The notes below the pieces were generated by a model. It ran no database searches, was not told the DNA's origin, and saw only the letters and a list, made by a program, of their open reading frames with translations. The position numbers and the translations under genes were made by a program. DNA of 35,268 bases from Stramenopiles sp. TOSAG23-6. Lineage: Eukaryota > Sar. The stretch is from positions 1 through 35,268 of the forward strand of contig LT635946.1 of NCBI GenBank assembly GCA_900128565.1, given 5' to 3'. Each line of letters opens with the position of its first letter. The first letter of the stretch is position 1. Below are positions 3,007 through 35,268 of this stretch, one piece after another.

Positions 3007-6000
3007 TTACATCCATGCGCTATCATCATTAACATCACCTTGGCCCTCGCCGATAGCGTCTCCACCTGTTGGATCTTTCCACTCTAGAGCACCAGATGTC
3101 AAATGTATCCAATAATATTTTCCCTTGGAGCTACTCCATTTTTTCGACCATCCTTCTTTCGGGAGAATATTTACTTTGTCTAACGTATCCGTAAAAGATG
3201 CATCAGCAAATACTATGACACGGCCAGACTTTGTATTAGCTAGTAAACTTCGTATTTCACTACAAGCAACATCTCTTACATCGCGTCCATTTATACTTAA
3301 GACATGCATGCCTTTTACTACACCTGCATCAGCCAAAGGTGAACCACCATCCTTCTTTGGTCGGAAACCATCTACCCGAGCCCCATATTCACGACCTGAT
3401 ATTTCTTCGAGTTCTACGTAACAAGGCTCACCTTTATTAATGTCTACATCAATAACAGTAGAATATGGGTTTATCCCACTAGATGTATTTACACTTGCTG
3501 CTTTATGTGGTACTGCAAATACAAATTGTCGCTCTTCATTCTTTATCTTATCTAAAAGAAGCGTAATGTCTAAATGATTCAGTTTTCTTACATCTTTTTC
3601 ATTAATACTAATCAGATGCATTCCTATCTTTGCACCCGCCTGTTGTATGTAACTACCCCCTTCATCCTCTGCTTGAAATCCAACAATCATTACACCAGGA
3701 ATATTTTTCGCAATAGGAGCTAGTTTTGTAAATGTAGGGCCAGGTGGTGCAGATATCGTAATCACATTACCATTTTTCTCATTCCTTGACCTATATTTAG
3801 ATTTTGAGTTTGAACCCCTATTTTCATTCTTTTTACTACTGGATGAACTTTTTCTTCTTCGTCTTGATACTTTTGTAAATGTCACTCTGAAAGATGTATT
3901 CCTTGCTGAGCTTTGTTTCACAGTTAATTTCAATAAGCTAGTAATATTTTGAAACGATGTGTTGGTAATATCACTACCATCAACTTTTACTAATCGCATA
4001 CCTTTGACTACACCACATTTACCTAACCAAGAATCTTTTTGAACAATTGTTACTTTTGCACCTACACCATTTGAAGAATATTCACATAGCCCTATACCTA
4101 ATGGGACGTTTGGCGGTATTTCAACAGGTCTTAGAGTATTTGATTCACCTTCTCTGTCAATGTGTACTAAAGTGCCACTAGCAGTGCTTACAATAACGCT
4201 TCCTTTACGCTTAATATTCATTGAAGAAGGTTTCGTTTGATCTATTTCATCAATTTGTTTTCGGATTTCTTTCATTTCTGTAGCAGGTATCACTTTATTA
4301 CTTTTATGTGCCTTACTCCTTAGCTGCAGCAATTTTTTCATCGATTTAGCCACAGCTGTCGCTTGAATGACACTGGTGTTGTCTGGGTTTTCCCATCTAA
4401 CGTCACCTGTATTGTCATCTACCCAATAAAAACAATTTTTACTTTCTGCATAAAATTTTGTCCAATGCCTAGTCGTTGTTTTGATGTTTTTAACTTTGGT
4501 ATTTGTTTCAAATATTTTCTTCAGTCGTCTTCCACATGGCTCTGCGATTTTACGTCTACAAATAGGAATCATCGAAACCATAATTAGAAAACCTAAAAAA
4601 ACTACACTTACATTGATTATAACTAAGGATTGACCAATAAATGAATTTGTACTCTCTACACTATCGCTACTAATCAATAATCCAGCAAAAAACACAAAAA
4701 ATAATACACATAATAAACACTGTTGTAAAACATCATCGACAATCTCATGATATGGCCTTGTATTCATTGCAATAACCATAAAGAATACCGTAATCACTAA
4801 ACCACATGCACTCCGTTGTAGTGGCCCACCCGCAAGTGTAATACCACCTGTCATGAATGCTTTTCTAAGTAACTCGCTGCATTCGTACCACCAGAATTGT
4901 CGCTTATATTGCAAGTACAGAGAGCCATACACTCGCTTCATCCTATGATAATGTTTATTATTATCGAAAGCTTCTTTTTCGGTTTCATCCATATATTTTG
5001 GGTGTATAAGTAAATGCCGTATATGATATAATTTAAGAAAATATATTAGCGGCACGCCGACGACAAAAAAGCACAATCCAATTGTAGCCACTAACCATAT
5101 TGGTGAGTATACTTCGTTATTACGGTCACATATAATACTTGCATCGGCTCTCAAATAATGAACACCATTGACTTCGAAACAGTGAAATACTCTGAAACAT
5201 CGTGTTGTGAGTGCCGGGTACATTAAAAATATAACTAGATTAAAAAGTGCTATAGCATTGTCTCTACAACTCAGTGTAGTATATCTTACTCTTGGGAAAC
5301 ATTTCTTGATAATTATGCATATAACATAAACAATAAATAATACAACTGTGAAAAATGGCAATACACTCATATGCGCCATAAAACTTCCAGCAAAGTTTGT
5401 ACTAAAACTACAAGGGGAGTAGAACGCTAAAACTGCCATAAAATCTAAATTAATGTATTTGAATTGCCTATATAATTCAACAAATTCAGGTGGAAATGTA
5501 ACACCTAGTGTAAATTTAAGTTGTGATATCACTTGCATATGGGATACGACTTGACGAACGGTTGATACTAACATTATTAGACTACCACTGTCAGGACCAG
5601 CAACTGAGTGCATTGAAGCACCAGTAGCTAAATCATCTTGTGCGGTTTCAAAACGTCTCTGGTCATCATCATCATTATTTGCTTTTTTAGTATTTTTATT
5701 TTTTTTAGTATTTTTCTTGGTTTTGGTATTTTTGGTATTTTTAGCAATTTCAGTGGTTTGATTATTATCTGGATTACTTTCATCATTGCCATCAAAAGTA
5801 ATAGGACTTACTTTCGCATGCCTTCCCTTTGACGAAATGTGCATAGATGGGAGTTTAATAATTTTACCTTTTGCACTTTCTCTAATATTTCTACCCTTAT
5901 CTCTAATCCGCCTACTAGTTTTTCGTGCAATAGATGAATTGCGACGTATTGTCTTTGCTACTTGAGTTCTACTCATATGCCGTTCATTCTTTATAGCAAC

Positions 6001-9000
6001 AATCCATTCACTATATGAAATAACGCCGTCATTGTTAATATCTATTGTATCAACCATTATATCAACCAATCTTTTGTCCATTCCTTGCTTCAATAAACCA
6101 AGTTTAAGTTCTACAGATGAAACTGTGCCAGAATTATCAGCATCAAGTTTAGAAAATGCACCACGCATATCAATATTTGATGCATCAACTTCTTCAAATG
6201 GCGGGCGTTTTGTTAGTAATACAAATGCTATAATAACACCCATAACGGTAGCAGCTATAGCAGCATATTTTAAACCATTACTATTCTTTCCTGACACACA
6301 ATAAGTGCATAAAATGCCATTGGATTCACGAACAAAATTTTCGTCACAAATTCCACATATTGGACCAGTATAGCCGGTGCTACATTCGGTCCAGTTTCTA
6401 CGCACAAACTCGTCGTTTGAAACTTTTCTTAATGGACACATACCTATATATTTCCATGCATGACCGGTACGTGGTTCGCCAGCCGCGCCTTCGCATTCTT
6501 CTAAAGTTTCAATTTTATCGACTTTCTTTGTACATTCTTTCCAATTTGTTAAATTTGAATATGTTGTACATTCTTGACATTCAAACTCGGGTCTTCCGTC
6601 TTCTTTCCACGGACATTCTAATGCACGGACTCCAATAGGATTTGATTGATAAACGGTTAAATTTTGCCAATATCCTTGTTTTAATGAAATTTGTTTTTCA
6701 GGATCCAACGTGAAATACTCTAAGCCTTCTTTCGTGCAATTCATTTCTGGTGAACATTTGGAACACGATATTGCTCGAGAATCAAAATCACTTAATATAT
6801 TCATATGAATATCTGTTAATTTAGTCACATTATACTTTGCATTAAACTTTGCTTTTTCTAATAGAAATTGTTGGTGTGCTAAAGGTTGACGGCCCTCGGC
6901 AATTTCTATTGCGGTACTTTTTTTAGATCTTTCAATCATATAATCAATATCTCCAAGATGTCCATAATAAGACAGAGGGCAATGACAGCGCATTCGATCA
7001 GAATCACCTTCGGCAAACATTCCTGGGCATCTGCCTTCATACTGTGACCCTTCAGGACAAAAGCTCTTTGGGCCACATTGTACTTTCACGCCTGGGGTGG
7101 CACAGAAGTAACCACCTGGACATGACACGGGGCTTTTGGATCCTCGAGCGCAAAACAATGCTTCCTTGTAATAATTTTCAGAGTGAATAGTATCGGCACC
7201 ACATTCATACGAGATTTCTGGAGAAGGACAATAATATCCAGCTGGGCAAGGTTGAGCAACTTTTGAACCAGGTGGACAAAAGTATGAAGTTTTTTCCCAT
7301 ATACCACTTGGTGACCCACTTATACATGCAGTTTTGGTAGGTCTACCTCTAATCCATTCACCATTACTAGCGTTGCAGATTTCTTCATTTTCTACATTTG
7401 TGAGTAATGTACCTTGTACATGCCATTTACATCCATTTTCGTTATCATCTATGCATATATCCTCTGTTTGGTGTGTTTTACATAATGTATCATCATTTTG
7501 TTTACGACAACCTCCTACATCTATACATATTGAAGATAATACATCATTTTCAATAAGGCCAGTGGATATCATACATGATTCTGTTGTAGAACATTCAATT
7601 TTCTCATTAGGATTTGGACAATAAAATCCACTTGTACATTTTGTTGGATCAACTACACCACCAGGACATACCCACGAAATTGTTGCATTCTCTAATCTAG
7701 AGTCGGGATTTGACTCATCATAAATACATGATTTTTGAGTCGCTGAATTTGGACAATAATAACCTGGTTCACATTGTTTTGGAGAAAAGCTTCCTTCATC
7801 ACAATAATCACCAGGGGTATCACATGCGATTTCCTCACTCGATGTTGGACAGTAAAATCCTTTNCGGCAAATACTTGGATATTTTGATCCTTCAGGGCAA
7901 TACTGGGCTTTATCATTTGCAGATGCTTGATCATCCATACTCCATACCCCAGTCAATGAATCTATTCCATCAATTCCATTTATTTCTATTGTTGCTTTAC
8001 AAAGATCCTCTGTTGTTCTTGCATTTAACCATACACCAACTGGTACTGTACTAGTACAAGTATCTTGAGTTATTCTTTGTAATAACGCTCCCATAAACGT
8101 CCATGTACATCCAGCTACGGTACATGTATCAAACTCTAATGTATCACACGCATCATCAGTGTCTGATGTACCACTACAACCTGATTTTTTTGCAATACAA
8201 ACATCAACTACATTATTAGTAGATATGCCATTTACTTCAATCATACATGCGCTAAAGGGTATATCACAATTATAACTATGTTTTCCCCCACGACAATAAA
8301 AACCACTGGGGCATTTTTTTGGTTGTAATGCACCACCTGAGCACAGCCACCCTGTATGTTCATCCTGTAGTGTTGCATCTACATCATCACTATTGTATAC
8401 ACAACTCTTCCGAGTACTACTGGATGGACAATAATAGCTTTCACTGCACATATTGTTTTCATAACTCCCCTCAGCACAGTAAGAGCCGTTATCTGGGCAT
8501 AAAATTTTCTCTCTTGAATTAGGACAATAAAACCCAATTTCACATAGCGGGCTTTTATTGATTGTTGCTGTAGGACAATAGTATGCTTTTATTGTAGGCA
8601 ACCATTTATTTGTAGAAGCTAGACTCACTTTTGGTAAAATTGTACATTTTCCCTTTTCACTTAGAGGTATATAATATACTTCATCCGATAGAGCAGTTCC
8701 AATAACGTTGCCGACTGATCCAACAGTGTATGTGCCTACTGGTTCTATCGAACAACTACCATCAGTAAATTCTAAAGAACCACTACTATAACCTTTTCCT
8801 GGATTGATTAACGTAACTTGTATCGTATCTAATGTGGTGATTATTTCTTCACCCTCTTCATTTGTATCTTTTCTTGTTTCAAACTCTGTCGTTAATATAG
8901 CTTTAATATCACTACCTGTGCTTTCACAAGCAGCTTGTGTTGTACTCGTATCAAACAAATCTGTTCCATCTTCAGCTATACAATTTCCAATCGGAAATTC

Positions 9001-12000
9001 TGATATGTACTGTGATGGTTCAATCCATGAGATATCATTATTACTATCAACACACTCATTTTGGTTTGTTCGCTTTGAATACCATTTACCAGTTGGGAGA
9101 ACAGTTGATTCGCATTCTTCTTGAGTTCTTCTTCCTTTAATAAGATCGCCTTTATTTTTCCAAATACAATGGGCTTCATTCTCACAATTTTCTTTCTCGT
9201 CCAAATCAGCACAAACAATCTCGCTATCTGAATTATGTATCTCTACACATTCAGTACTTTCAGTTATACAACTATCTACACTAATATTAGTACTAATATC
9301 ATTAATAGTTATGACACAACTTGAACTGTATGGATAATCACAACTGTACTTGTACTTCCCATCTTTACAATAATATCCTTCTTCACATTTAGTTGGGGTT
9401 AGTGATTTCTGCGGACAGTGCCATCCAACATGCTCACTTTGTAGCCAATTATTAGGTTTTTTTGGATCAAAAACACAACTCCTTTCTTCGGATGAAACTA
9501 TACAATAACTTCCTTGGGAACAATCACTTACTACATGACTTCCCGAAGAACAAAAACTTCCATCATTTTTACATGGAAACTTTTCTCGGGAGTTTGCACA
9601 AAAATAACCTGCAGGACAAGTAATTGGAACTGGTGAGCCTTCATCACAATATACGCTTTTTTCGGTACTAATTCCTTCCATATACTCCTGGTGCGAAGCA
9701 GAGATCCAGGTACCACCCGGAGTATTGGAGCAAGCATTTTCATTAATACGTTTTTCATACCAAACACCTTTTGGTAACCTATCCGTTTCGCATTTTTGTT
9801 TTGTGTTTCGATTTGTTAACACTACCCCAGCTAGTGTCCATTTGCAATGTAAAGTCTCACATGTAGCGGGGTTATTATGGGCAGTACAAGATGATATTTC
9901 ACATACATCATCATCTGCATTGTCCTCGTCGCCTGTATTCCACGTGCAATTATTTCCTCGACAATCTTCTGGCGTTGAATATGTTTCACACGTTGCAACA
10001 CACACATCATTACTTGTCCACGAACATCTTCTTTCAGTCATTGAATTACAATCATTGATTTCCGATATTGTACTACAGTGTGGGGGTGTTGTCTTTTCAA
10101 CACATGTCCCAGAACTCCATAAGCAATTTTCTGCAACACAACTATCCATAGTATATTGATATGAACAATCAGCAAAATCGTCACAACCTTCATTAGATAT
10201 GCAGGTATCCACACTTATATTAAAGGAGGATGAACCTTGTTGAATCTCACAGTGACTATGAAAAGGATACTCACAACTATATCTATACATTCCAAGTTTA
10301 CAATAAAACCCAATAGGACATGGTTTCGGTATTTTATTACCCCCAGTACAAATCCAACTTTTTGAAGCATCGCCCAACATTGTATCGTTTGAATCCTCAT
10401 TATACACACAACTACTTTTGCTTACTGATGATAAACAGTAATACCCAGTTGGACAAGGCAGTGGTGTACTTGCACCTTCTGGGCAATACGAACCATCATC
10501 GTCACATTTATTCTGTTGTGTTGTTGTTTCATCGCACCAATATCCAGCGGCACATATTGAATAGGTTGCAACACCCGCTGGACAATATACTGCTTGACCC
10601 AATTCTTCAGCTACAGTTACACAAGAATAATGTTCTGAACCATTTAAACAATAGAAACCACTTGGGCATTCGTTCTTCTCTACACTGTTTAGAGGACAAT
10701 AATACTGTTTTTCATCGTCTTCCAATTGACATTGATTCGATACATCTGGCGTTGGACAAAACTGCCCAATATCACAATCTCGCGGAAGAAAAGAACCAAC
10801 GGGACAATATGGTTTATCCTCTGAAGTGCATTCATTCATTTCTCGTGAACTTTGACAAAACGACCCCGTTTCGCATTCTATAGGAACTAGACTACCAATA
10901 GGGCAATAATATGCTTTGGTCATTGGTAACCAAGCAGCATCATCCAATTTTTCACATGCTTCTTGCGTTTTGTATTGTGATATCACGTCTTCTCCAGCAT
11001 ATAAGCATCTTCCTAACGGCGTTGTATCTGTTGTTTCAGGATCTATCCAAACACCTTGAATATCGTGATTGCTATCAACACAATCAGCCTGTGATGTTCG
11101 CTTTGAATACCATGTACCCTTTGGAAGAATAGTTGATTCGCATTCTTCTTGTGTAACACGTTTTACAAGTAATGTTCCTTCCGGTGTCCACAGACAACCA
11201 TTATTAATGCATGGAGTTGGCGACGAATGTAGATTACATGTTTGATCATCCGATTTGTTGGAACAGCTTGCTATCGCTACACATGTATCCATCAAAATAT
11301 TAAATGTGGTATCGTCAGCAGTTAAAAAACAAGTACCAGAATATGGATAATCACAACTATACTTGTTTTTACCCAGTGTACAATAATGTGCAATAGGACA
11401 TTTTATTGGTGTTTTTGTGTTACTTGGACAATACCAACCCACAGTTGGACCTTCTAAAAATGTGTCAACATTGCTTGGATCATAAACACATGATTTTTGA
11501 GTCGCTGAATTTGGACAATAATAACCTAGTTCACATTGTTTTGGAGAAAAGCTTCCTTCTTCACAATAATCACCAGGACTATCACATGCGATTTCCTCAC
11601 TCGATGCTGGACAGTAAAATCCTTTGCGGCAAATACTTGGATATTTTGATCCTTCAGGGCAATACTGGGCTTTATCATTTGCAGATGCTTGATCATCCAT
11701 ACTCCATACCCCAGTCAATGAATCTATTCCATCAATTCCATTTATTTCTATTGTTGCTTTACAAAGATCCTCTGTTGTTCTTGCATTTAACCATACACCA
11801 ACTGGTACTGTACTAGTACAAGTATCTTGAGTTATTCTTTGTAATAACGCTCCCATAAACGTCCATGTACATCCAGCTACGGTACATGTATCAAACTCTA
11901 ATGTATCACACGCATCATCAGTGTCTGATGTACCACTACAACCTGATTTTTTTGCAATACAAACATCAACTACATTATTAGTAGATATGCCATTTACTTC

Positions 12001-15000
12001 AATCATACATGCGCTAAAGGGTATATCACAATTATAACTATGTTTTCCCTCACGACAATAAAAACCACTGGGACATTTAATTCCCTCGCGAGTTGCACCA
12101 GCACATAATTTATCGTCTGAACAAGGATGTTTAAGACCGTTTTTGCACTGATACCCTTTTGGACACAATTCTTTCTTAAATCCGTCGCATGTGTAATGAT
12201 CAGGACACTGTGTCGGTGCTATTGAATTTGCAGGACAAATCCATAAATGTGAAGAATCTATTAACCCATCTTCATCTTTTTCGTACTCGTTCCACACACA
12301 AGATTTTTTTGTAGTATAGTTTGGACAGTAATTACCTTGTGGACAATCAATACTTTGATAAGACCCAGCGAAACATAATTTACCGTTTTCTGTACATTCT
12401 ATTTGTTGTCTTGATGTTGGACAATAATTATTTTCTCCACAAATAGATGGTTCGCTAACACCAAGAGGACAGTATTGTGCTTGTAGCATGTTTGTCCATT
12501 CCCCAGAATTATCCTCACAAGCTGCTTGTGTTTTGTATTGCGAAATCACATCTTCTCCTTCATATAAACATCTTCCTAATAATACTTCATCTGTAGTTTC
12601 AGGGTCTATCCATACACCTTGAATATCGTGATTGCTATCAANACAATCAGNCTGNGATGTTCGCTTTGGGTACCATACACCAATATCATCGTTACAATTA
12701 TTTTCATCTACAGACAATAAAGTCCCTCCCATAATCCATACACAGTATTTTTTTGATAAACAATCTGGACTTGTTGTATAATCTGAACAATCATCTTTTT
12801 GGGTACTTGTGGACGCATTATTACCTTTACAATGATCTATCGCAATACAACTATCTACACTAATATTAGTATCAATATTATTAATAGTAATGACACAACT
12901 TGAACTATACGGATAATCACAACTGTACCTTTGTACACCACCTTTACAAATATAACCTAAAGGGCACAAATTTGGTAGTGATGAGCCTGTTGGACAGTAC
13001 CAGTGCTGTACCAAATTATTTATTGTTAGTGTCCTGTCCGGATTACTTGGGTTGTATACACATGGTTTTGGTTCAATGTCTCTCTCCATACAATAATTGC
13101 CCGCAGTACATATATTGCATTCTCGTTTATGTGCAAATAGTTGAAATGTACCTTCTGGGCAAGTTTTACAAGTATCAGGTCCTATGTTTTTGCAAAATTT
13201 GTGACTTTCTTTGCATTCCCCTTCACAAGAAGTGGTCTCCCAAAGACATGAATTATTTCCTATACATTCTGTATCACTAATAAGACTTGAACAATCTACA
13301 GTTTCGTCCAAAGGTGTCCACGAATTTCCACAGTTTTTTTCTGTTGATTCACTCTCATTAAAACTACTTTTACATTTGCCTTTAGCTACACAACCTTTCC
13401 AACTACATACAGATGATCTTTTTTTACAATCAGCTTCATTTATATAATCATTGCACCTTTGAGTGTGATATGAGTTACTTGGGCATACTCTATATTCTTT
13501 TGTATCACTTGAAACACTATCACCAGTTCTATTAGTTGATTTTACAGAAATTCTAAAATTTTGTATTATTGAAGTATCTTCATAATCAATTTCTGTAGTA
13601 TACTTGACAAGTTGGTTACTACCTGTTATCCACGTACAACTACGTGGACCAATATATTCACAACCATTGGTGTTATTACATGCATCTTCTTGTAGCTTCT
13701 TTTCACATTCACTGCTCGCTGTAGCACTACAACTTTCAGCGCTGGTGTCCCATTCACAACCAACAGTTTTCTCACAAAACCGTTTTAATACAAGTTCAGC
13801 ACATTTACTATTTGATGATGCAATACAAGATACACTTTTACATGAATTATTATTTGTATACATTGTACAATCGGAAGAACTTAAGCATTTACTATTAACT
13901 GAATCCCATCTACATCCGTTAGCTTTAGCACAGGACTTTGGAGATTCAGAATTCCCCAAACAATATTCAGCATTGCTTTCTACACAAGCGTTTTTACAAA
14001 AAGCTGATTCATTTGAATTTACAAATTTAGTACTTGTATTATTAATTTGTACTTGAAATTCTGTAATATCATCAATATTTTTAGTTTCTGTATCTGGACA
14101 CTGCCATTCTATATCAAAAATAATTTTTGCAGAGTTTTCTGTCTCCGGCACACTCACTGATACGGCTATATTTTGGGGAGGTGGAGGTACGCTCTCGTCG
14201 TTCATATTAGCTTGTTGCATAGGTGTGTACATGGACCATCCTACTTGATTTCGAACACGCATACGCATCCACATATTATTTATAGTAGTTGGCACATCTA
14301 GTATAACACCTATGTCAGAAGATGACTTGAACGATTTCCATGATGGGTTATCATCATTTTCTGTATCACACAAAATTTGAAAATCGTATACAGTTTCTAA
14401 GTTGGTTCCATATAATTTTGGACTTTTCATTATTAGCATTCCACTTTGTTTTTCGTATGCTAAAACCTCAGGTTGCCTTTGTTTACCATCAATCGACATA
14501 ATCGGGGCTACATTATTTGGAGCAAATGTTTTAGTGAATAATGTCTTTGCTTCACAAGAATTTTTTTGTGTACTCCATTCACACTGACTAGTGCACTCAC
14601 TTTGACTATTTTTCATTGTATTTTTGTTGTCACATTTGTCGAGACATTTACCAGTTGTGAATGATACAAATGTACCTAGTTCATTACTCCATTCAGCGTT
14701 CTCTAACCAGGTACCATTAAAGTCAGAACATTTATCTTGTGGAATGTTTGTATATAATTTATGGACTATACAATGACTCGATGTACACACTTCTTCTGTT
14801 GAAGAAGCATACACAATACTACCCTTTATGCATCTGTGTTGTTGTATTTGAATTTTGTTCCCCACCTTCAAGTTATCAATGAAATCAGAATCAGCTGCTA
14901 GTGTTACACTAGTAGCACCCACATTTGTATCATATAGAACTGTTGCTTTTACTCCATTCATTGATATGATATCTGATTTTGTGAACTTATGAGGTCTTTG

Positions 15001-18000
15001 AATTCCATATATCGTCACTACATTGTTGTTCCATACACAACCATTTGAATTCTCTTCAGCACTATAGATGTTACACTTCTCTTCGACACTATAGATTTTA
15101 CAATGACTATATATTTCATGATACTCTAAACTACTACTGTGTAAAGTATATTCTGAATCTTTTAATGTCGTCATATTTTGATCAATTACCCCTTTAATGG
15201 TATCATGTGCTTGCTTTGTACTCTCTATCACCGGGCAATTATCTGTATCAATACATCCACTGTTTGTTGGAATAATTACATGTACACCCGCTGCAAGAAA
15301 AGCAGGGGAATTTGGGAATTTTGCGTCAAAATATACTTTAGAGGATGCAGTTGATGATTCCATAAATTTTCCTTTACTTTTACCTTCTACATTGTCCATT
15401 TTCATTTTAAGTCCAATATTATATGTCTCACCAAGTACTAATGTTAATTTTTTTTCATATCTCTTATCGGAATTGTTATACTTTAAAGGTACCCCATCAT
15501 GCGTAATGGAGCCTTTGTCACTTACTTTAGCACTTATAGATGTATCCACATTATCATATTGAACTTTAACAATGGCTAATTTGTTACCTGTATCTGAATA
15601 TTTCTGCACATTATCATCCTTTTGAAATTCTTGTGCAGTGTGATGTTGTACAAGTATAATTTTATCACTATTATTAATGTACAATACTGTTCCTAATGTT
15701 TTTTCTGTTGCATCATTTTCGATAATATCATCAACTTTTATATGAGATATGTCATTAGTATCAGTCAAGGTCAAGAGAGATGTGCCATACTCCTCAATGA
15801 TTAAATCTGTCTTTTTAGTTATTTCTTCCATACCATGGTAATATATTATCCATTCACCATCGTTATTTTCACAGGAATCCTTAGTAGGAGGGCTTGGCAA
15901 TGTATTGATAATGTCACTATTATCTGGCTCACGAACTATGCATTCATAGTGTGCACCACATGTTATATCTGATATTTGAGATATTCTACAATTAGGGCCA
16001 GTAAATCCGTGATGACATGTACAATCACTTCCATTTTTTTTTTCTCCATGACCACAACATGTATTCTCAGAACATTCTATAGCAGTGCAGCTGCCAGTCT
16101 CGGTTATTTTATAACCTCGAGCGCCAGCATCTGTAACACAAGAAGTATTATACTCATCAAAGTTGATACTGAAATCTGTGCTTAAACTAGTAGAAATACC
16201 ACTACTCACAGATGTCTTTACACAAGCAGCATATGGGTCGGCTTCATCTAACTTTTCATATCCATCATTACAATGACAAATCACTTTTGGTGTACCTAGT
16301 GTAGGAATGCCTAAACTAACTTTCGGTATACATCTTTTTATGTTTGCACCACACATCAAATGTGCAGCACATTCGCCCCCATTTCCACACGAAGCACCAA
16401 CGTCTTTACGACAGATATTCATAGAATCGCATGTTAAAGGTGAAAGATCAGATGAATCAGATGAATCACACTTTTTGTTTATACTACAATCATATCCTAA
16501 ACTAGCCACGCACGAATAACCATCCACGTCTAATATATAGCCTGTAAAACAGTCACATACTCGCATTTGATTATCTGTACTCAATGCTTTACACTTTTGC
16601 GAACAGCGTGAACAAGTAGCACTTTTTAGATCTGCTATACAATCTGAAAATTTTCCCGTCTTGTCATACACTGTTGTTGAAATACATTCTTCGGTTGGTC
16701 GCTTGACACAGCCTTTTAAAATAAAGCCAGTATAACATTCGCATATTCTCTTGTCATCATTTATTATCCCATTACCACACCCACCAAGATCTGTACAAGT
16801 ATCATTAATTACAACTTTGCCACTTCCGCAAGATTCACATTCTTCTTTTGAAGTTGTGCTTACTTTTCCATCAGGGCAAACTTTGCAGGACAACTTACCA
16901 GTTTTATCTTGATATTGGCCACCAACACATCCTTTACATTCTTCCAATTTAGCAACGTCGCCAAATTTACCTATTGGGCAATCATCACATGAGTTATTAT
17001 CACCATTATGATATTTTCCTTTGTCACAATCACGGCAGGTGGGACTTATCTTGATTTTGTCGGTACCTTTAAATACTCTACAATGAACAGGACAGTTTTG
17101 TGCCCAATCATACCAATCTGCATTTACATCTGTACATACTGAATGGCCTTTCAAATCAAGAATATCATAACATCCCCATGAACCATCACTTACATCACTC
17201 TTTAGTAAATTACTTTCAACTTTTAAATCTTCATTGGTGTAGTATCCTTCAACTATTGCACACGTTACGATACATTTTTGTGCTCTGGCAAAATTAGAAT
17301 CAGAAGAGTCTGTGCATACTGGTTTGTACACCTTCGATTGTTTTGACTTTATATTTAATCCACACCAAGGGTCGGTTTCGTCCTCTACAGATTTATCTCC
17401 TATCGATGAAGGTAATAATTGTTGTCCCTCGGAGTCATATGTCTTACAATCTACACACTCACTGGAATTTCTTGCTGCTTTTTTATAGGTATGTCTACCA
17501 GTTGAACATGTTTTACACATAGTTTGTCCTGTTTCATCTTGGTATGTACCTTCAGCACAAGTACTACACATTGTCGTTGTATCATCATTATAATACCCTT
17601 TCTGACAAGGAAAACATGCTGTTGGATTTATAGTCGTTGGTATTACAAACTCACTATTATCCGTTGGTATAATATCCAAAGTTTCATATAATGTTAATTG
17701 TATAGGATCTGCACCAGAGATACTCTTAATTTGTTTTACATCTCCTGCATGAGAATCAGATCCTTCTTTGGGTAATACTCGCAAATATTTGTCTTTAAAA
17801 TATGATGTAGGATAATCTAAAGTAGCTTCAATGGGAATTTGAAAACGCCGATAACGGAAATTGCTATTAGAATCCACAGCTTTAGTGAATGTCATTTTTG
17901 AAGTTAATACTGTCTCAGTACCATTTATACATGCTTCGCATTTTTTATTACCTTCACTGTCAGCTTTCAATGTTTTACCATTAGGACATTCAGCACATGT

Positions 18001-21000
18001 AGATATTCCATTTTCAGTCCGTATTTCCCCATCACACAATTTGCAACCTTTCCATATATTATTACCGACGCAAGTTAATTGACGCGACGAGTAAGAAAGC
18101 ACAATGTTACTGAGAGATGCATAGTTTTCAAAATTATCATTTGGATTTGAACTGTTATAATCAATAACAAGTTTAATATCCATATTGTCTGCATTTGACT
18201 GGTCTAGAAATATTGAAGGTATTTTATCACGTTTCACTATGCGTATATTGTATGAATATGCAGGAACAACAAATTTCATAAAGTCACAATCTAGCTTATT
18301 TGAACATGTCATTTTGTATGTAATGTCAGTACTATGTGAATTTGTTGCAATCACAGATAATTTCCAATAACTTTTATCGCTACAGACACATCTTGGTGAA
18401 GGTGAAGTACACCACTGGCCCAATCTAGCCGTGCTTATATCAATACATTCAATACCTTTAGGAAAACTTTTCAAAAAGTCTACACTATCTTTACCATCTC
18501 TGAAATTCCATAATACATTATTATCGGAAGTTACATTCTTTGGCCAAGTAATATTGATATTGGCACTATCTTGACTCAAATTTGATGGAGTTGAATTTCT
18601 CGCATAATGATACTTACCATTACATTGACTTATTGGGCATATAGTGCCTTCTGGAGCCGGACATGTTCGTATCGCAACTCTCATTGAAGCATGTTTTTCC
18701 CATTTTTGTGGGACAATTCTTACTCGTCTACAATTTTTATTTTGATGAAAACTTTGGTGAACTACACTACTATTATCACTATTACCTGTAAATAAATACA
18801 CACCTGAAGACTTATTTGTCCGTTGATACAACCAAGTTCCTCCTTCCAATTTACCTGTATACACAGAATATTCGGTGACCCATTGTTGTAAATATGGATG
18901 TCCCTGTATATCAATGCCGTGTACTGTGCGTAAAACACCTAAATCTATTTGGATGTAACTATTTGGTGTAATGTCGTATATGCTTTGAGGTTGTTTATAT
19001 ACCATCAAATCAACTTGTGAGTGCTTTTCAGATTGAATTTTATTTATAGGTGCAGATGTACATGTAGTTTTTAGAAGTTGAACACGCATTGATATTCCAC
19101 CATGCCATGTTTGTGGCACAATTACTACATTCTTCACTTTGACTGGTTTGACCCATTTCTGGTAAGCAGTCGAGTCACAGGGCTCATTTAATGTGTTAGC
19201 TTTCCAAAACAAACTACCCTCTAGTGTCTTCTCATATTTATAATCAGTGCCTTCAGTATTATGTAATACTTTGAAATATTTCACAAAACAGTTAGTGTCC
19301 TTTGTAGTGCACCATGTTGCACCTTGGGAATTACAAGGGAGTCCTTGTGTACTGGTACCTAGAATCTCAAGAACTTCATCTAATTTTATCCGAAGTATGG
19401 CTTTAGCAGGTGTTATAGTACCAAGTGGGGGTGTCATTCTATAATTTCCGAATGTATCCTTTTGATACAGAGAAAATTTTGCTTCATTGCATGATTCTTG
19501 AACATTATGAGGTCTAGCATATGGAATATTTCCTTTTGAGGCAATCAATATACGATAATCATGACATGAAAGCTTTGGCGGAGAAGCACCCGCAGCTTTC
19601 CACGCACATGCATTATTACTGCGCATAGAATATTTCGGCTTACACACTTCACACGTCGCGGGACAACATCCTCTAACGTGGTCTCTACGGTTCCTACTCT
19701 TACACCAATGGATAGCTGCAAAACATGTATTTTCGCTCCATGGTCCATTATCATCAAGGCATGTATTGTCTGGTTTATCTACACTGTCGCAGTTTATATA
19801 TTCATCGGTACAAGATCCTTGAATGACCCAACATGATCCTTCTGCACAATCATCATGAAATGCACATACACAACTATCTTTTTCACGCTTTTCTGTGAAC
19901 CAATCACATGCAAAATAACTTTTCTGTCTATCAGAATGACCTTGAATATCTTCGTTATCTGCACATACTCCAGGTTCTGTATGACAATAGTGTCGTTTTG
20001 TGTTTGAACTTGAAATATAATCAAAAGAGGTACAATCACTCAAGTATGTGCATTGACAAAAATTATTTACTGAACCAATACCTCTTAGTTTAGGATTCCA
20101 TATATATGTGGAATCAGTGACTTGAAATGTATCCTCTTCATCTAAAGGATTTACACTTAAACCAGTTTCTCTTTCTTTGGTCCAAGCAGGAAAACACCAT
20201 TGACCTGGACTACCGCCCCAACTGCTTACCATGAAGTAATTTATCTTTTTGTTTGCGTCTAGTGAGATAGACATGAACTCTTGTTTACCTACAACTTCTC
20301 CCTTTCCTACTCTTAAACGGTCATCATTCCATGATATCCAAAAAAACCTGAATTTATTTCGATTTAGAATCCCCCATTGATTGTGTGTATCTTCATCTGT
20401 CCCCTGATTACTTCTTCGCATTAGAGACTTCGAATTGTTCCAAGCACCTATTACAATCTCATATTTTTTACCTTCATGAGTAGTCCCTTCACTGAGAGCA
20501 ATATGAGCATCATTCCTTGTTTTTACAGAAAATACAATGCTTTTCTTATCAGATATAGGTATTGCTCCTTTATATTCATATTTAGCTTCAGCTTCGAATC
20601 CCACTTTCGACTTATTTTGTTGGGATCCAAAATTAAGTATAGATGGAAAATCTATATCCTTAAGGTATGATCCACAAAAATTATTGATAGGGCCATCGAA
20701 CTGTAAAGATTCAACTTCCTTTGGCTGACTGGAGATGACACTACCATTACTTGCTGTGAATTTAGGTATGTATACATCTATAGCTTCTGGTGTTTCCAAA
20801 TTACAACTAGATCTACTTGGTATTTCATATTTCCATGGCGTATATTCGGAGGATGTAGGTGCACTACATTCACATAATAATAACTCCATGGATTCTATCA
20901 CCGATAAAGGTGTTATTCTAACATTTGGAATTTGAAATTTCTGGTTATTATTCTGGTGACAGAAAGAGGATGTTTCCCAGTATGCAGTACAATGTGCAGT

Positions 21001-24000
21001 GCCACTGACACACTCATCGCCCTCTTGCCCAAGTGGTGGACGAATTGTAGAAGGATGATTAGCTGCATTTCCAAAGCCCATTCTGTATATTATGGATCCA
21101 TTTATGTCACCCTTGTCAATATCAAAAGCCCACATTTTCCAAAAGTTATTCCATCTTAAAAATACTTGATTATCAACATCGGTATCTTGCTTTTTCCAAT
21201 ATGCTTTATTGTTGATTTGATCATTTTGTAGTATGTATATACCACTCACATCATCTCTGTTGCAGAAGGCAGCTTCTTGTCCACCCCATGATATAATATC
21301 AGCTGTGACTTGTAAACGTCTTGGGATAATTGATGTATCCTGTGAATAATTTAAATCTGATGTTGATTCTTTTGTATGGGTACATGAAACTTCATTTGTT
21401 GTATGACACATATCATTCTCAGTTTCTTTCCAAGATTCATCATTCCATGCATGAATACATGTACGACCAAAACTTGAGCAGTATTCAGAACAACTTGTTT
21501 TAACATTATGTCTAAGTACAGTGCAATCTCTACATGCAATTTGAGAAATGTTGTTTTCATTATTGTTTTCTTGTAAAGTAGGCCAGTTTTCTTCATTACA
21601 CAAATTAGACTCAGTACTTAAATTCGTCATTCCAAATGCAAAATATAATCGATTGGAATTCGAATTTAAGAGGGTGTTTGGGTTTTGAAAATTATTTTTT
21701 GATTTTCCAATTCTAAAGTTATTATCGTTAAATCGGCTAAACTCATCAATTTCATTCAAACTATTGAGCGTTAGACCTTGAAATGCAATACCATTTGGTG
21801 GAATTTTAGATACCACATTAGTATCAGTAGAATAAAAACCATTATTTTGCGTTTGATCAATACTTTTGTATGTGTTTTTAATTTGAGATTGACTTCTTTC
21901 TGTAAGGATTTGCCCCCTCGGTGAAGACATTGGGTTTGTATTTTGTGACCACATCAAATACGACGTTTTTAATTTCGAGTAAGGATAATGAATTTTAAAT
22001 TTAAACCCATTTTGTTTTGTTCTAAATTGCTCAATATTTTCTAATCGACTGTAATTAGCTGAATATTGGTCTGGTGAATTTGGATTTTGTACACCACTCA
22101 CCAATGAATATCCTAAATTATGCCATGCATATTGATTTTGTGAAAAATACTGATTTTTTCCAGTACTGGAAGACTGCCGACCTAGTAAGTTCCAAACACC
22201 TTCAGTGTTATATAAAAGTTCTCTATCTTCTTTTAAACGCCCAGCTGTAGTTTTCTCGGTATGATTTCGTGTATCGCATTGCATGACAGATGCTTTTCGA
22301 GTATATACAGAAAATGTAGATACTGAACCACACAATAATCCTGCTTGACCTGCGATAGTATTTACGTCACACCGCAAACATTCAGATTCTTCTGCAGCAT
22401 TGAATAAAGGTCGTTGTGTTGAACATGTACAATATTTTGCATTGTATATGGCTATATATGTATATATAGTATGTTCATTTGATAAAGATCTAGTATCACA
22501 TGCTTCAAAACATATTTGCGGACTTGCAGTTTTTTCATGCATCTCTAATGTAACGGACCAATTCATTAAGTTACTTGTGTCTACAGGATCAGTTTTCAAA
22601 GTATTTGTAAAACATCCAAAATATTGAATTGGATTTTTCGTGGAATCTTCACCAACAACACCTCTACTCTTTGTTGTAGGCACACACTCTGCACTCCATG
22701 CAGTATTTGAGTGTATCTTGGGTGATAAAATACGAGAAAATGAAGGCATTGATGTTTTATATAATCCAAATCCATTTACTGATGTTGACAATAAACCTTT
22801 CACTGTTGAAAAAATAGGTGTATTATTTTGATCACTATCATTCATACATTGCAATGATGGTTTCGATGTTTCAATACTATCAGCACAACATTGCACCGCG
22901 GCATGTTTTACATGCTTACATTGTTTTTTTGTTCCAACACAAGACCCATCAGTCCATTTGCAAGAAGATGCCTCACATTCAATCTGGGATGTCAAGTGAT
23001 TACATGTTGTTTGAACAAAAACAGATTGCAAATTGTTGTTATGAATGTTTGTAGAACTCAATGGAGTGTTGTTTGTATTGATTGCAGTACTATCAACTCT
23101 CTGCCAATCAAGAAATGCTGAAACAGATTTCCCCCCTGATCGATCAATATTTACTATATATCGTATTTCGTGTTTACCAGCAACTAAAAATACACTTTTT
23201 GAACTTGTCCATTTTTGTACACCGTCAATATTTGACCAATTGCTAACAAATCCTACACAACCAGGTGTACCATTACTAATACATTGCCATGTACTTGACA
23301 AATTCGTTTTATCCATTGCCGTTTTATTGAGCAGTTTTGGTACAATGCGGCAATTTTCGTGAGAGTCAGAATATGTTGGATTTATTGTTTGATGTCCAAT
23401 TGGGTCGCAAACGACTCCATAACAAATATCATTTTCTATTCTACAATATCGTTTTGCTTCATCTAGTCCACAAATACCTACACATTGTCCACTAATAAAT
23501 TCAGAACAATGTGATTTTCTACATTGTAATTCATTTACTGATATTGATTTGCCTAAATATTGCTTCCATTCAATGTTGTAATTATCCCCAATACTATCAT
23601 CTCCAATATCAATTCCTCCAAGATTAAGTGCCATAGGAAGCTTGGACGCCTCTTCACCGCCAACATTGTTTGTAAACTGTGCTTTTTTTCCATTTGGCGC
23701 TGTACATTCACAAATGGCATCGGATGTACCCGTGAATTTATAGTCACACCCTTTATGTTGAAGCACATCGCAATTGTCATCTCTTTCTTCCCATGCATCA
23801 ACACATGTGCGCGGATTGACTTTATCAAGTTGGGCACAATAATCATTACATGAATTATTATAACCATTAATGTTAATCAGAGCTTTACATTCACCACACA
23901 CAAGGTCATGGTCCTTACTTGGCCATGTTGATTCATCACATAATTCATCCGCAGGAATCGAATCTCTGACGTCCCCAATACCTTGAAAAGGTGGGGGTGA

Positions 24001-25777
24001 ATGAACTCTATTGATAAACACATCATCAACATACAAATAACTACCACCATGAGTACTCTCATAGAATCTATACAAACCTGATTTTGGAACAGTCATCATT
24101 CCTGTCCATCGAACAACTAATTTTTCATCCTGGGGTCGTAAATCTATGTAAAATGTTTGATCTTTACCCACTGGAGATGCTTGTGGTAAATCTAAAGCAT
24201 GACAATCAAAGTCATGTAAATTTTTGTCTGTTTCTTTAGTAAATTTATTAATCACTAAATAGCAGCATCCTAATCCACTTCCACAATTCGCACCAATCTG
24301 ACAAGCTTTTTCTGACCAAAAAAGACCAGAGGTATTTCTCCCGTCATCACAATCATCTGCTGCATCAATGTAACACCAATCTGATGTAGCTCCCTGCACT
24401 GTGTCATCCATATTGCAGCGATTATTAGCGAGAGGTGATTTACACTTGCATTTTTGTTTTGCACTGATGTAATGAACGCCTGTACAATTTACAGTTTCAT
24501 TACACTTTTGTTTACATAAATCAACATGTGATGATTCGAATCTACCAGTACGTATAACGTCAACATTGATATTATTTCCTACATTGCAATCATCTCCTTG
24601 TATCCATTGAATTTGAGTACCAAAAGTAGGATAATCACTAGTGGCGACATGTTGTTTTGCAGTAAAATTTGTATCATTGCTATCAATATCAAATACCCAA
24701 TATTGTGAATTCCATTGCAGGTACATACTACCGTCTGTTCTTCTCCATTTTATTTTATTGTTATGTTTATCTGAATCCCTCACGTATATACCATTTAATA
24801 TTGAATTTTGACATGTGCCACCACCTACGAATGCTGTAATTTTTAAGACATCAGATAATATCTCACTTTTTAAACTACTTGTATTACATAGAGTATTTGT
24901 GTGTATTTTCCATTGAGGTACTACAATTCTATCGTGTATAGGGGGTGGCTGTGTACCATTGATAGACTCCCATTTAACACCACTTGCTAAAGGGCGACTA
25001 TCGCATCTTGTTACTAATGGAGTAGATCTGTCTAATACAGCATTAATACCTAAATATCCTATATCGAGAGGTTTTATATCTGCGCTATATACTGTATATG
25101 ATGAACACGAACTCGCTTCATAATATATATTACCTATAGCAGCAGAAGTGCTTTGAGTACCAATACCAATCATACTGAGCACACAGTCACCTTGCTGAGA
25201 ATCAGCCAAATTGGATAATCTTGCAAACACCATACAGTGTTCATTTATACATGCATCTTCACATTCACTTTTAGTTTTCATTTCAAGTATTCGAGGTTTC
25301 TGTATGCAGAAATTTGATGTAAGTTTATTAAATGTTGATTTTTTTTCAAAAGAATAATACTCACCAAAGAACGATAATGTTTGTTTGTTCACAGACGAAT
25401 TCTGCATTGAACATTGATTTGATTTTGATGTCTCCGTAGACATATTATATTGCGTTTGTTTCTTTGTTTCATTATTTCCTAATACATATATTTGAGCAGA
25501 TTTTTTCCAATGTTTTGGAAATGGGCCTTCTTGACACCCCTTAAAATCAGAATTGCCTTTGTCATCTTTATTACCTATAGTAATTGGTACATCAAGACAT
25601 TGTACACACTTCATCTCACCATTCACTGCTGAACAATATGCTTCATTCTCCTGATTTTGATTCTCACATACTGCGCCTTCAAAATTACGATTGTTACAAT
25701 CGTTACCTTCGACCCATGTGCCACTGGTGCAGCAGTAGCCAATACTCGTGGTCGTTGCTCCTGGTACTCCCGATGTA
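3007..25777 (-). CDS. Giant multidomain surface receptor/TRP-like channel with WW-PDZ tail, exon 2
   Basis: Uninterrupted frame of about 7,590 codons, downstream exon of a gene starting at 30254. The full protein is about 9,055 aa; residue numbers use that model. Order: PAN/apple-like (about 1610-1690); PA14 halves (2000-2055, 2320-2360) around a Cys-rich insert; WSC-like (2517-2628); farnesoic-acid-methyltransferase-like (3190-3328); ShK-like ending CCPATCEVC (about 3475-3520); F5/8C discoidin (3707-3836); GCC2/GCC3 repeats (4180-4450); EGF (4698-4730); FN3 (5280-5565); seven long Cys modules (5650-7720); membrane helix (about 7967-7990); two EF-hands (8003-8053); multi-pass TRP-like region (8200-8540); WW, three PDZ, WW (8568-9035). 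It ends WM-TAA. The domain order implies a secreted N-terminus, a membrane-embedded part and a cytosolic Ca2+/scaffold tail. The frame is open above 25626 to an acceptor at 25779-25778, so a start near 25626 (GTG) is not real. Ns lie at 7864, 12642, 12651 and 12655. Confidence 0.85.
3070..4475 (-). other. Cytosolic WW-PDZ-PDZ-PDZ-WW scaffold tail of the giant protein
   Basis: The C-terminal coding segment contains a WW-like domain (HWTKFYAESKNCFYWV then DVRWENP, about 4470-4375). Three PDZ-like domains follow at about 4150-3860, 3790-3510 and 3435-3215, each with the recurring G(V/A)-(V/I)-x-GM-x-(L/V)-(V/I/S) turn: GVVKGMRLVKVDG, GAKIGMHLISING-like and GVVKGMHVLSINGRDV. A final WW-like domain (WSKKWSSSKGKYYWIHL then LEWKDPTGG, about 3155-3070) sits near the stop. 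Carboxylate-binding loops are divergent from canonical GLGF (LGIGL, VMIVGF, YGARVDGF). The likely role is binding proline-rich motifs and C-terminal peptides to cluster the receptor or link it to cytoskeleton or signalling; the partner proteins are unknown. Confidence 0.72.
4560..6310 (-). other. Membrane, EF-hand and TRP-like channel region of the giant protein
   Basis: This is the coding segment for the transition from ectodomain to cytosol. After CGICDENFV and CTYC comes a helix, KYAAIAATVMGVIIAFVLL (about 6270-6210). Two canonical EF-hand loops follow: DADNSGTVSSVE (about 6154-6119) and DINNDGVISYSE (about 6055-6020). Next are a Lys/Arg-rich linker with a KNTK repeat and DDDD (about 5760-5650), then a hydrophobic region with about six or seven segments, including VVLFIVYVICIII, MYPALTTRCFRVFHCFEV and LCVLFFVFFAGLLI. 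The YPALTTRCFRVF/YLRAD pattern is like the TRP-like domain attached to GCC2/GCC3 ectodomains in heterokont proteins (from memory, not searched). Ca2+ binding by the EF-hands is well supported by the loop residues; channel activity is inference. Confidence 0.7.
7726..8310 (-). repeat. 585-bp near-identical intragenic repeat, copy A
   Basis: It aligns without gaps to 11488-12072 (offset 3,762 bp). By eye I count six substitutions and one N across 585 bp, almost all at the 7726-7870 end. About 415 bp (7870-8285) show no difference. It codes for one Cys module including NCDIPFSAC and GVWSMDDQASANDK. Identity stops abruptly after the CCACTGGG that ends the copy. Confidence 0.85.
10960..11155 (-). 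repeat. Diverged intragenic repeat, copy 1
   Basis: This segment codes for KRTSQADCVDSNHDIQGVW and the GRCLYAGEDVISQYKTQ stretch. It is clearly related at DNA level to 12525-12677 and more weakly to 9040-9120. The longest identical block reads CACCTTGAATATCGTGATTG. It is part of the seven-module array. Confidence 0.7.
11488..12072 (-). repeat. 585-bp near-identical intragenic repeat, copy B
   Basis: This is the partner of 7726-8310, in the same orientation and same reading frame, giving almost the same protein segment. It has G where copy A has the uncalled base at 7864. The sharp identity boundaries and long mismatch-free core point to recent duplication or gene conversion, or alternatively an assembly artefact. 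Confidence 0.85.
12525..12677 (-). repeat. Diverged intragenic repeat, copy 2 (contains three uncalled bases)
   Basis: This is the partner of 10960-11155. Ns at 12642, 12651 and 12655 lie exactly at positions where the other copy has bases, suggesting that reads from paralogous modules conflicted during assembly. The protein frame is maintained across it. Confidence 0.7.
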
Positions 25778-25857
25778 CTGTGAAAAAATATTTAAAAAAT
25801 CGTTAGGTACAAAGTTTCGTACAAAAACANATTANATCTGAAATTCATGATGAAAAC
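25778..25857 (-). other. Spliceosomal intron of the giant gene
   Basis: The intron is read on the minus strand. The 3' side has branch-site-like CCTAACGATTTTTT (CTAAC at 25806-25802), a T-rich tract and TTTTTTCACAG ending at 25778. Two frame-preserving models exist. Model A: donor GTTTTC at 25857 with acceptor CACAG at 25778 (80 nt, protein 9,055 aa). Model B: stronger donor GTACGT at 25861 with the next AG at 25767 (95 nt, protein 9,050 aa). An N at 25863 beside the donor, and further Ns at 25830 and 25835, prevent a firm choice. The intron is inferred from the opposing open frames and these signals; no transcript was seen. Confidence 0.72.
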
Positions 25858-30254: not shown

Positions 30255-31076
30255 CGGGGTACGATATCGCCGAACGGTTTTTGCTACCTTGAAAGTTTTT
30301 TTCGTGTTTTTCAAGTTATTCTTGAGGTACCGCTTTCCATATAGAGTTTGCAAAAGATGTTTACTATATAATTGTGATACTATCATGTTGAAAGTGTTTC
30401 AATAAATCAGTAGATGTAATACTTAATCGCTGAAGTGGACTTTGATTGTGTACTAACGATATACAACCGGTTGCTTCAACAAACTCTACCCAAAAATCGC
30501 CGAAACCGAACATAAGGAGTTTCTCTTTTTTTTTGAGCAGGTTTGTTTCAAATTTCAAAAAAATGAAACCGTTAAGGGCCGATCTTCGCTAAGAAATCGG
30601 CCGCGGACATCAAATCGAGAAAATTTTCTCTGCGCACTATAAAATTTTATTGTTTTTTTCGTATGCGGTCATGCCATAAGAATATATTTTCATCACTGTA
30701 AAACCACCAGATATTGTGTTGATAGGTGTAATAAAAGATATCCTGAAGTTTGTTTACTGTAAATTATCAAATTACTTTGCTAAAACAAATTTTCTACTTG
30801 CCCTTAATTGAAACTCATGTGCTCCTTGAAAATGTACTTCATGTTAATATGGGGACTGTAGCAAATCGAATTGATCACTAAAACAAATTTGGACACTGGG
30901 TACATACACTCCAACGTATCCACAACACAATAGGAGGCTAAAATATACTCAATTGTACTGTTTTGTCTACGTTTGGTTTAATTTTGTCAGGAGCATTCCC
31001 AGAGTGTTCCTCATTTCAAGCCATTTTTACACTATAGAAAACTTTCAATAGTGATTCGGATAGGATAAAATATACA
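30255..31076. promoter_or_regulatory. Divergent intergenic region upstream of giant gene and 291-aa gene
   Basis: These 822 bp separate the giant gene's ATG (minus) from the ATG at 31077 (plus), so both promoters probably lie here. The 132 bp next to the giant gene keep an open minus frame but lack a secretory start and are probably 5' leader. A strong hairpin sits at 30577-30602. I see no coding region, tRNA or rRNA. The stretch is AT-rich, with A/T runs at 30290-30310 and 30640-30660. Confidence 0.45.
30577..30602. repeat. Inverted repeat / hairpin in intergenic region
   Basis: GGCCGATCTT (30577-30586) pairs with AAG-AA-ATCGGCC (30591-30602) around a CGCT loop, with a two-base bulge. It is GC-rich compared with the AT-rich surroundings. 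It could be a regulatory dyad or part of a transcribed leader; no poly-T tract follows directly. Confidence 0.5.
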
Positions 31077-35175: not shown

Positions 35176-35217
35176 CTGCTCATTACAGCAAGAACAACAA
35201 CCCCATGTATATAAGAC

Positions 35218-35268
35218 ATGTATTTTGGAAAAATATTTCAAAAAAAAATCGTTAGGTACAAAATTTCG
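35218..35268 (-). repeat. Intron-end-like sequence shared with the giant-gene intron
   Basis: The last 51 bp of the window align with 25773-25819 (the 3' end of the giant-gene intron) with one short A-run length difference and a few substitutions. The shared core, on the minus strand, is TTTGTACCTAACGATTTT. At the place where the intron ends in CACAG this copy reads CCAAAA, so the homologous acceptor is missing. It is probably the 3' part of an intron of the MULE-like gene that uses a later AG, or a decayed copy. Confidence 0.6.

Follow-up and report, generated by a model that had tools for sequence, protein, structure and literature searches.

Background

In animals, the PDZ/WW scaffold is a separate soluble protein that clusters channels in trans, and accounts of PDZ-based channel clustering usually present it as a trans interaction that animals elaborated. 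This report concerns a gene of Stramenopiles sp. TOSAG23-6 in which a scaffold-like array appears to be part of the membrane protein itself. The window, by which we mean the whole stretch of 35,268 nucleotides analysed (LT635946.1; assembly GCA_900128565.1), is contig C404 in an assembly of 8.03 Mb and 408 contigs, the others of which are cited here in the same manner. The content of the assembly, with introns, a mitochondrial carrier and proteins with EF-hands and PDZ domains, is taken to be that of a eukaryote. The window carries one minus-strand gene that encodes, in order, an ectodomain, a transmembrane (TM) helix, two EF-hands, a TRP-like core and a WW-PDZ-PDZ-PDZ-WW (WW-PDZ3-WW) tail.

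By type, the closest characterised relative of this protein would be Pkd2 of fission yeast, a comparison offered as an analogy and not as proof. Passages of PMC11277609 describe for Pkd2 a putative extracellular lipid-binding domain and a central nine-helix membrane domain; they also state that Ca2+ passes in vitro under membrane stretch and that the tail sets the distribution of the protein.

Results and discussion

A covalent fusion conserved in a paralogue

Every part from the first helix (TM1) to the last WW domain lies within a single unbroken minus-strand frame, an open reading frame (ORF) of 7539 residues at 3007-25626 when counted from the first start codon and of 7594 codons from stop to stop. 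A preliminary description, made from the letters of the window alone, had placed the membrane helix, EF-hands, multi-pass part and WW-PDZ3-WW array at 3070..6310, and all of them were located there; the gene itself reaches 30386. Its central claim, that a channel-like membrane domain, EF-hands, a scaffold and a huge ectodomain are joined in one polypeptide, is borne out by the open frame and by a paralogue on contig C88 with the same order. When residues 6393-7539 were compared with the paralogue loci by tblastn, C88 aligned across query positions 1-1147 at 44% identity. By this alignment, C88 (L036:3313-6765, minus strand) has TM1, the EF-hand pair, the core and WW-PDZ3-WW, and it ends in the tip AGWM. 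Between the two genes, the differences by codon position are 0.46/0.34/0.59 from WW1 to WW2 and 0.37/0.20/0.53 in the core, the pattern of protein-coding sequence under constraint. The sequences directly show that the parts are covalently joined in this order, that one paralogue keeps the order and that the protein belongs to a family with at least 14 loci.

The membrane region and its topology

The two canonical EF-hand loops reported earlier are confirmed as 12-residue loops, the pair scoring over the Pfam cut-off (EF-hand_1, 33.4 versus 25.4 bits). Downstream of them, single-sequence hydropathy gives six clear hydrophobic segments where six or seven had been described. Averaged over 14 paralogues, hydropathy leaves S2, S3, S4, S6, S7 and S8 clear and S1 and S5 weak, which suggests eight segments for the core (S1-S8, 4567-5580) and nine helices with TM1, seven clear and two weak, in a region whose structural model has a predicted local distance difference test (pLDDT) value of 42. 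The Kyte-Doolittle (KD) value of S1 is 0.72-1.71 across 12 paralogue frames. An invariant Cys pair sits between S3 and S4, and the motif YGSLY..WWYE...LLRK precedes S5. On the predicted nine-helix topology, the EF-hands, the S4-S5 loop of 55 residues and the tail would lie on the inner side and the S3-S4 Cys pair on the outer. In the window protein, Lys and Arg (K+R) number 40 in the TM1-S1 linker, 10 in the S4-S5 loop and 11 in the segment after S8, as against 0-3 in the outer loops.

Is the core a TRP-type channel?

The core matches PF06011, the family that we take to include fission-yeast Pkd2 and the fungal FLC proteins, over profile positions 148-409. At E<=0.01, matches to overlapping parts of the profile occur in 8 of the 14 family ORFs, none of them over the cut-off of 28.5 bits (hmmscan). 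In a genome-wide search with PF06011, C19 and C101 (the latter together with its neighbours) were the two places that exceeded the cut-off, and none of 14 control genomes gave a match. All three database relatives described below match at E<=0.01 (P0003, 28.7 bits; P0004, 26.8; P0002, 22.8). The six family ORFs that lack a match have cores that are 32-34% identical to that of the window.

Several observations weigh against a channel of this type. The window core itself reaches only 27.5 bits (E 1.8e-6; match at 4549-5373), a score that drops to 24.6 when a longer piece is scanned, and C407, C61, C399, C362, C405 and C390 have no PF06011 match at 0.01. The profile of the core has no relative in the PDB at E<=10. 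An AlphaFold2 model of the core from two sequences was of poor quality (pLDDT 42.1), so that its fold was not used, and a Foldseek search with it gave nothing at E<=0.001 (best 0.89). The window protein shows no recognisable pore loop, its S7-S8 and S5-S6 loops being 14 and 6 residues long. As to topology, the inner S6-S7 loop has one K+R against three Asp and Glu, the loop lengths are unequal, and the S4-S5 loop lacks a positive bias in most paralogues.

An ML-like lipid-binding ectodomain ahead of the core is a feature of the FLC/Pkd2 type of PF06011; Pfam scans of both exons found no ML-like lipid-binding family at E<=0.1, and likewise no Ion_trans or PKD channel domain. The channel proposed earlier is kept here in a weaker form: we infer it from a similarity to PF06011 just under the cut-off and from the analogy with Pkd2, against which stand the missing Ion_trans and PKD domains and a core model of pLDDT 42.

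The WW-PDZ3-WW tail

Taken singly, WW1 and WW2 (cut-off 26.9 bits) as well as PDZ2 and PDZ3 score below their Pfam cut-offs (Table 1). The PDZ sum exceeds the cut-off of 23.2 bits in a 1147-residue piece (24.9) and reaches only 19.5 in a 3840-residue piece. A profile built from six PDZ repeats, those of the window and of C88, matches 110 PDB sequences at E<=0.01, the best an InaD-like protein at 8.1e-10. The three window repeats also resemble one another (z 7.0, 11.3 and 20.6; none of 300 shuffles reaches any of these values), and among the 15 pairs of the six repeats a single one, PDZ1-PDZ2 of C88, is not significant (16/300 shuffles). In C88 the PDZ matches are well over cut-off (PDZ_6, 41.3 versus 27; PDZ, 35.6 versus 23.2). 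Searched alone against the PDB, PDZ1 finds the PDZ domains of ARHGEF11 and NHERF1 at 0.007-0.02, with designed TIM barrels on top (0.0004, 0.0055), and the best match of PDZ2, itself a PDZ domain, reaches only 0.19. A plain sequence comparison of the 1147-residue piece with the PDB gave 254 matches at E<=0.1, the 60 listed being EF-hand proteins or chimaeras of them.

The carboxylate loop of PDZ domains is the GLGF-like loop, which reads VPLGIGL in PDZ1 of the window and VKLGIGV in C88. Because only PDZ1 keeps such a loop, it is likely to be a peptide binder. That the loop is not recognisable in PDZ2 or PDZ3 of the window weighs against the mechanism proposed below.

Two WW domains are likely but not proven. 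Trp, Trp and Pro at WW spacing are invariant in 5 of 5 aligned segments, and a WW profile finds Pin1 in the PDB at 0.0086, beneath two matches to a beta-propeller protein (0.0003, 0.0005). The AlphaFold2 model of the tail, made from one sequence, failed as a whole (pLDDT 32.6; fold not used); within it, both WW domains are three-stranded sheets of pLDDT about 45-61. The C88 piece that matches WW2 has no Pfam match. The order WW-PDZ-PDZ-PDZ-WW given in the preliminary description thus stands for its PDZ part, and its WW part is the weaker, with the Pin1 match and sub-cut-off Pfam scores.

A paralogous family

Three queries (the window piece and the cores of C390 and C19) led to the same 16 contigs and at least 14 distinct loci, with the near-identical contig pairs C13/C14 and C386/C387 counted once each. 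Fourteen is a lower bound, since only the best candidates were scored. When the 14 cores are aligned, nine columns are invariant and there is a motif like YGSLF..Y....WWYE..EM.RK. In a maximum-likelihood tree of these cores, C88 is the sister of the window protein (97/98), and C13 groups with the pair (84/86). Of the 14, these two sisters alone were found to have PDZ domains; the further exons of C88, C13, C400 and C210 were scanned in part only. In C13, the core is accompanied by a single WW-like segment (Pfam E 0.35; the alignment shows it conserved) and by no PDZ match, and a parsimonious reading would be that WW was gained first and PDZ later.

Other members carry other parts. In C19, the core is followed by a C2 domain and preceded by Ephrin_rec_like and fn3 domains; in C386, Ephrin_rec_like and an EF-hand below threshold precede the core; in C101, an EF-hand below threshold follows it. 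In the remaining scanned family ORFs no domain of known function was found outside the core at E<=0.01, DUF7630 being present in C399, C405 and C390.

Two features of the assembly were noted beside the family. In C13 (L037, about 5171-5208), a run of A within the EF-hand region interrupts the frame, no intron being evident, and C14 shows the same split matches. Pattern matches are mirrored within C2 and within C27, which, together with the C13/C14 and C386/C387 pairs, suggests amplification chimaeras or haplotypes.

C-terminal tips

The tips of the family resemble PDZ ligands. Of its ORFs, 11/14 end in Val, Ile, Leu, Phe or Met, compared with 21/54 in a background set of ORFs drawn from the window and 21 loci (Fisher p 0.014), and half (7/14) also have Trp, Tyr or Phe at position -1, compared with 3/54 (Fisher p 0.0003). 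The seven aromatic-hydrophobic tips are AWM, GWM, EWL, KWV, TWL, TYL and MFF; the three ORFs without a hydrophobic end are C13 (GK), C386 (NE) and C210, in which the frame continues into an intron. These figures must be discounted on several counts: the tails were already known when the comparison was made, the members are kin, and the background includes at least four tails of intron read-through as well as internal exons, hence not true C-termini. The class 1 PDZ ligand motif alone, too, is not enriched (2/14 versus 2/54, p 0.19). The ligand classes are those of PMC2553845, passages of which do not mention Trp at -1.

Because seven family tips are aromatic-hydrophobic and PDZ1 keeps its GLGF-like loop, the members with PDZ domains may cluster their own siblings, half of whose C-termini look like PDZ ligands. 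The self-scaffolding first suggested is in this way refined to a possible clustering of siblings through their C-termini.

Relatives outside the genome

A protein database yielded two relatives, P0003 and P0004, among 2773 candidates for the C362 query, and P0002 as the sole relative of 7996 scored. P0001, the sole match among 4648 candidates, was dropped because its EF-hands alone matched. P0002 comes from MERC, P0004 from EukProt and P0003 from ENA. The PDZ tail was found in none of the three relatives, a result that has little weight for P0002 and P0004, which look partial. Among viral contigs, 14 pattern matches gave no confirmed relative, and the titles and abstract starts of the open-licence literature yielded no protein uniting these parts.

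The joining of GCC2/GCC3 repeats to a PF06011-like core is not unique, because P0003 has the same join. For this part, a family of at least 14 loci here, the earlier suggestion of an undescribed system goes too far; what is left of it is the built-in WW-PDZ3-WW tail, which appears to be an unusual variant within the family. As for proteins that join GCC2/GCC3, TRP-like and PDZ parts, P0003 has the first two and no PDZ, and C88 has the TRP-like and PDZ parts.

Proposed mechanism and competing readings

The gene product would be a giant surface protein with a signal peptide, a Cys-rich ectodomain, TM1, EF-hands, an eight-segment core and the WW-PDZ3-WW tail. Its core would pass or gate Ca2+ upon pulling or binding of the ectodomain, and the EF-hands would provide Ca2+ feedback. 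PDZ1 and the WW domains might hold family members and partners together, PDZ1 gripping the x-aromatic-hydrophobic C-termini carried by half of the family. The scaffold would thus be built into two family members and not supplied only in trans. As a whole, a TRP-like surface protein with Ca2+ gating, EF-hand feedback and siblings held by PDZ1 and WW is the best explanation that we can offer, and falls a little short of being probable. A more specific version, that the family makes mechano- or contact-sensitive Ca2+ channels with their own scaffold, in which PDZ1 of the window protein and of C88 binds sibling tips and gives mixed clusters without a MAGUK- or InaD-like protein, we regard as unlikely.

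It is distinctly possible that the core is, instead, a receptor, transporter or lipid-handling domain, the EF-hands and tail then belonging to an adhesion receptor that organises the submembrane cortex. The want of an Ion_trans or PKD channel domain and of an evident pore loop would be expected on such a reading, which also accommodates an ectodomain that makes up most of the mass and a tail of docking domains; PF06011, besides, covers the fungal FLC proteins, the channel role of which is debated. It accounts less readily for the overlapping PF06011 matches in 8 of the 14 members and all three database relatives, in a family type for which Ca2+ passage by Pkd2 is reported (passages of PMC11277609). 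The tail, for its part, may bind other partners, of the cytoskeleton or of trafficking, with the tips serving other PDZ proteins. The GLGF-like loop kept by PDZ1 in both members and the seven aromatic-hydrophobic tips speak for siblings as ligands, and yet five other open frames of the genome have PDZ domains over cut-off, including one of 699 aa that stands tail-to-tail with the C101 family member, and ORFs on C186, C376 and C393 contain sequence resembling PDZ2. We hold this reading to be possible, if somewhat doubtful.

That the fusion is an artefact of assembly or of the gene model is highly improbable. The assembly does contain near-identical contig pairs and contigs with mirrored matches resembling amplification chimaeras, but one frame of 7594 codons stays open throughout and C13 looks like an intermediate; because the independent paralogue C88 has the same domain order over 1147 residues at 44% identity, we reject an artefactual fusion.

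Should the TRP-like surface protein with a built-in scaffold be real, a scaffold fused to such a protein in a unicellular eukaryote, together with siblings whose tails resemble PDZ ligands, would represent a different route to channel clustering, and it would give a worked case among proteins that have received little study, in which GCC2/GCC3 repeats are joined to PF06011-like cores.

Gene structure, intron and neighbouring sequence

The right boundary of the gene, beyond the ORF first read, follows from a predicted intron at 25773-25861 and an upstream ORF. Removal of GTACGT...TACAT joins the upstream and main frames with no internal stop into a predicted protein of 9096 residues, 8010 of them ahead of TM1, with 529 Cys in total; the peptide at the junction, DVDGQFCP-PGVPGATTTS, is GCC2/GCC3-like. 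By eye, a signal peptide-like segment, MNFNHFMIIFLALLLFVTPCLSASC, lies near the start of exon 1. In the exon 2 ectodomain, Pfam recognises Methyltransf_FA (92 bits), F5/8 type C (61 bits) and Ephrin_rec_like, which equals GCC2/GCC3 (41.9 bits), besides a sub-threshold PA14 match. The Ephrin_rec_like repeats occur alone, with no kinase domain of Eph receptors at E<=0.1 in either exon (Pfam). This Cys-rich ectodomain of some 8,000 residues is probably adhesive. Within its coding sequence, a 600-bp direct repeat (7717-8316 and 11479-12078, 98.5% identity) may reflect recent duplication or gene conversion of ectodomain repeats.

Table 1. Features of the gene in the window
Feature	Position	Strand	Basis or content
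Exon 1	25862..30386	-	about 1508 codons; N-terminus, first part of ectodomain, DUF7495 match; in-frame join to exon 2
Introner-like intron GTACGT...TACAT	25773..25861	-	dispersed repeat and frame; 89 nt
Exon 2	3007..25772	-	remaining ectodomain, membrane region, cytosolic tail
TM1, single helix after Cys-rich ectodomain	6211..6267	-	hydropathy, KD mean 2.33
EF-hand loop 1, DADNSGTVSSVE	6109..6144	-	canonical 12-residue loop
EF-hand loop 2, DINNDGVISYSE	6007..6042	-	canonical 12-residue loop
S1, weak hydrophobic segment, LIMLVSTVRQVVSHMQVIS	5524..5580	-	KD 1.24; helix in low-confidence core model
S2-S8 of TRP-like core	4567..5364	-	hydropathy, PF06011 match, paralogue alignment
WW1 (likely)	4384..4464	-	Pfam 15.7 bits; alignment, Pin1 profile match; three strands in tail model
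PDZ1	3847..4131	-	GLGF-like loop (VPLGIGL), repeat comparison, PDZ profile; no Pfam match alone
PDZ2	3502..3774	-	Pfam 14.3 bits; repeat comparison, PDZ profile
PDZ3	3193..3471	-	best Pfam 20.0 bits; two-sequence profile to InaD-like 6.9e-7; repeat comparison
WW2 (likely)	3070..3150	-	Pfam 19.2 bits; alignment, Pin1 profile match; three strands in tail model
C-terminal tip DDSAWM	3010..3027	-	PDZ-ligand-like: aromatic at -1, hydrophobic at 0

The intron belongs to a repeat of about 90 bases that recurs in other loci in the sense of the genes. Two copies lie in the window, both on the minus strand, at 25773-25861 and at 35212-35268, the latter cut by the window end. The ends of the element can pair with each other; it contains an inner hairpin (GTACGAAATTTTGTAC) as well as a CTAAC motif, and it terminates in ACAT, not AG. 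A 20-mer of it, with at most two mismatches, has 2167 matches in 8 Mb and none in a reversed control. Of thirty copies examined, 12 were flanked on either side by an unambiguous frame, and the other 18 allowed no scoring. A cut from the GTATGT-like start to the ACAT-like end kept 11 of these 12 in frame, as against 3 of 12 (one third being expected by chance) for a cut at the first AG after CTAAC; the single out-of-frame copy, L041:9250-9364, aligns poorly at its right end. By eye, there seem to be ordinary introns too: the C101 junction reads GTAAGT...TTACAG, and one at C88 ends in TTACAG. Because introners of Amoebophrya have inverted repeats and non-GT-AG ends (passages of PMC7789003), the element looks like a further case of this known kind. 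For diplonemids, passages of PMC12621601 describe non-canonical introns without a conserved splice-site motif and, in three species, canonical ones that start with GTATG.

Elsewhere in the window, a plus-strand ORF of 519 aa (1213-2769) matches the TLC ATP/ADP transporter family at 33.1 bits, against a cut-off of 21. For a minus-strand ORF of 742 aa (33040-35268), which carries the C-terminal Cys motif KPCKVCNQFHSFSKCP, Pfam gave no match at 0.1; the 5' end of this ORF, at the right edge of the window, lies within the second introner copy. Outside the window, the ORFs of L029 (C186) and L032 (C376) share the PDZ2/PDZ3 motif FRP..GGSP....GV..GM, and the C186 ORF seems by eye to run on into a putative HECT-like region.

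Comparison with known systems

Within the genome, C88 shares the full order of membrane and tail domains and differs from the window protein in that the two are only 44% identical and in that its ectodomain lies on further exons, read in part. Among database proteins, P0003 (2051 aa) likewise has Ephrin_rec_like (GCC2/GCC3) repeats followed by a PF06011 core, at 26% identity over 63% of the 536-residue C362 query part; unlike the window protein, it has FG-GAP repeats in its ectodomain and no EF-hand, PDZ or WW at E<=0.01. The animal TRP and polycystin channels are set apart by their channel domains, with a pore loop between the last two helices, the window protein having no Ion_trans or PKD channel domain at E<=0.1 and an S7-S8 loop of 14 residues. 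The plan of the fission-yeast Pkd2/FLC type, in which a membrane domain of nine helices stands between an ectodomain and a cytosolic tail (Pkd2 traits from passages of PMC11277609), resembles the one predicted for the window protein. To this plan the window protein adds an ectodomain of thousands of residues, EF-hands and a WW-PDZ tail, and it differs further in a core under the PF06011 cut-off and in having no ML-like family in the Pfam scans. The tail, finally, resembles the InaD-like and MAGI scaffolds, which carry PDZ arrays (in MAGI together with WW) and chains of which are among the PDB profile matches; in animals such a scaffold is a separate protein, whereas in the window protein it is part of the membrane protein itself.

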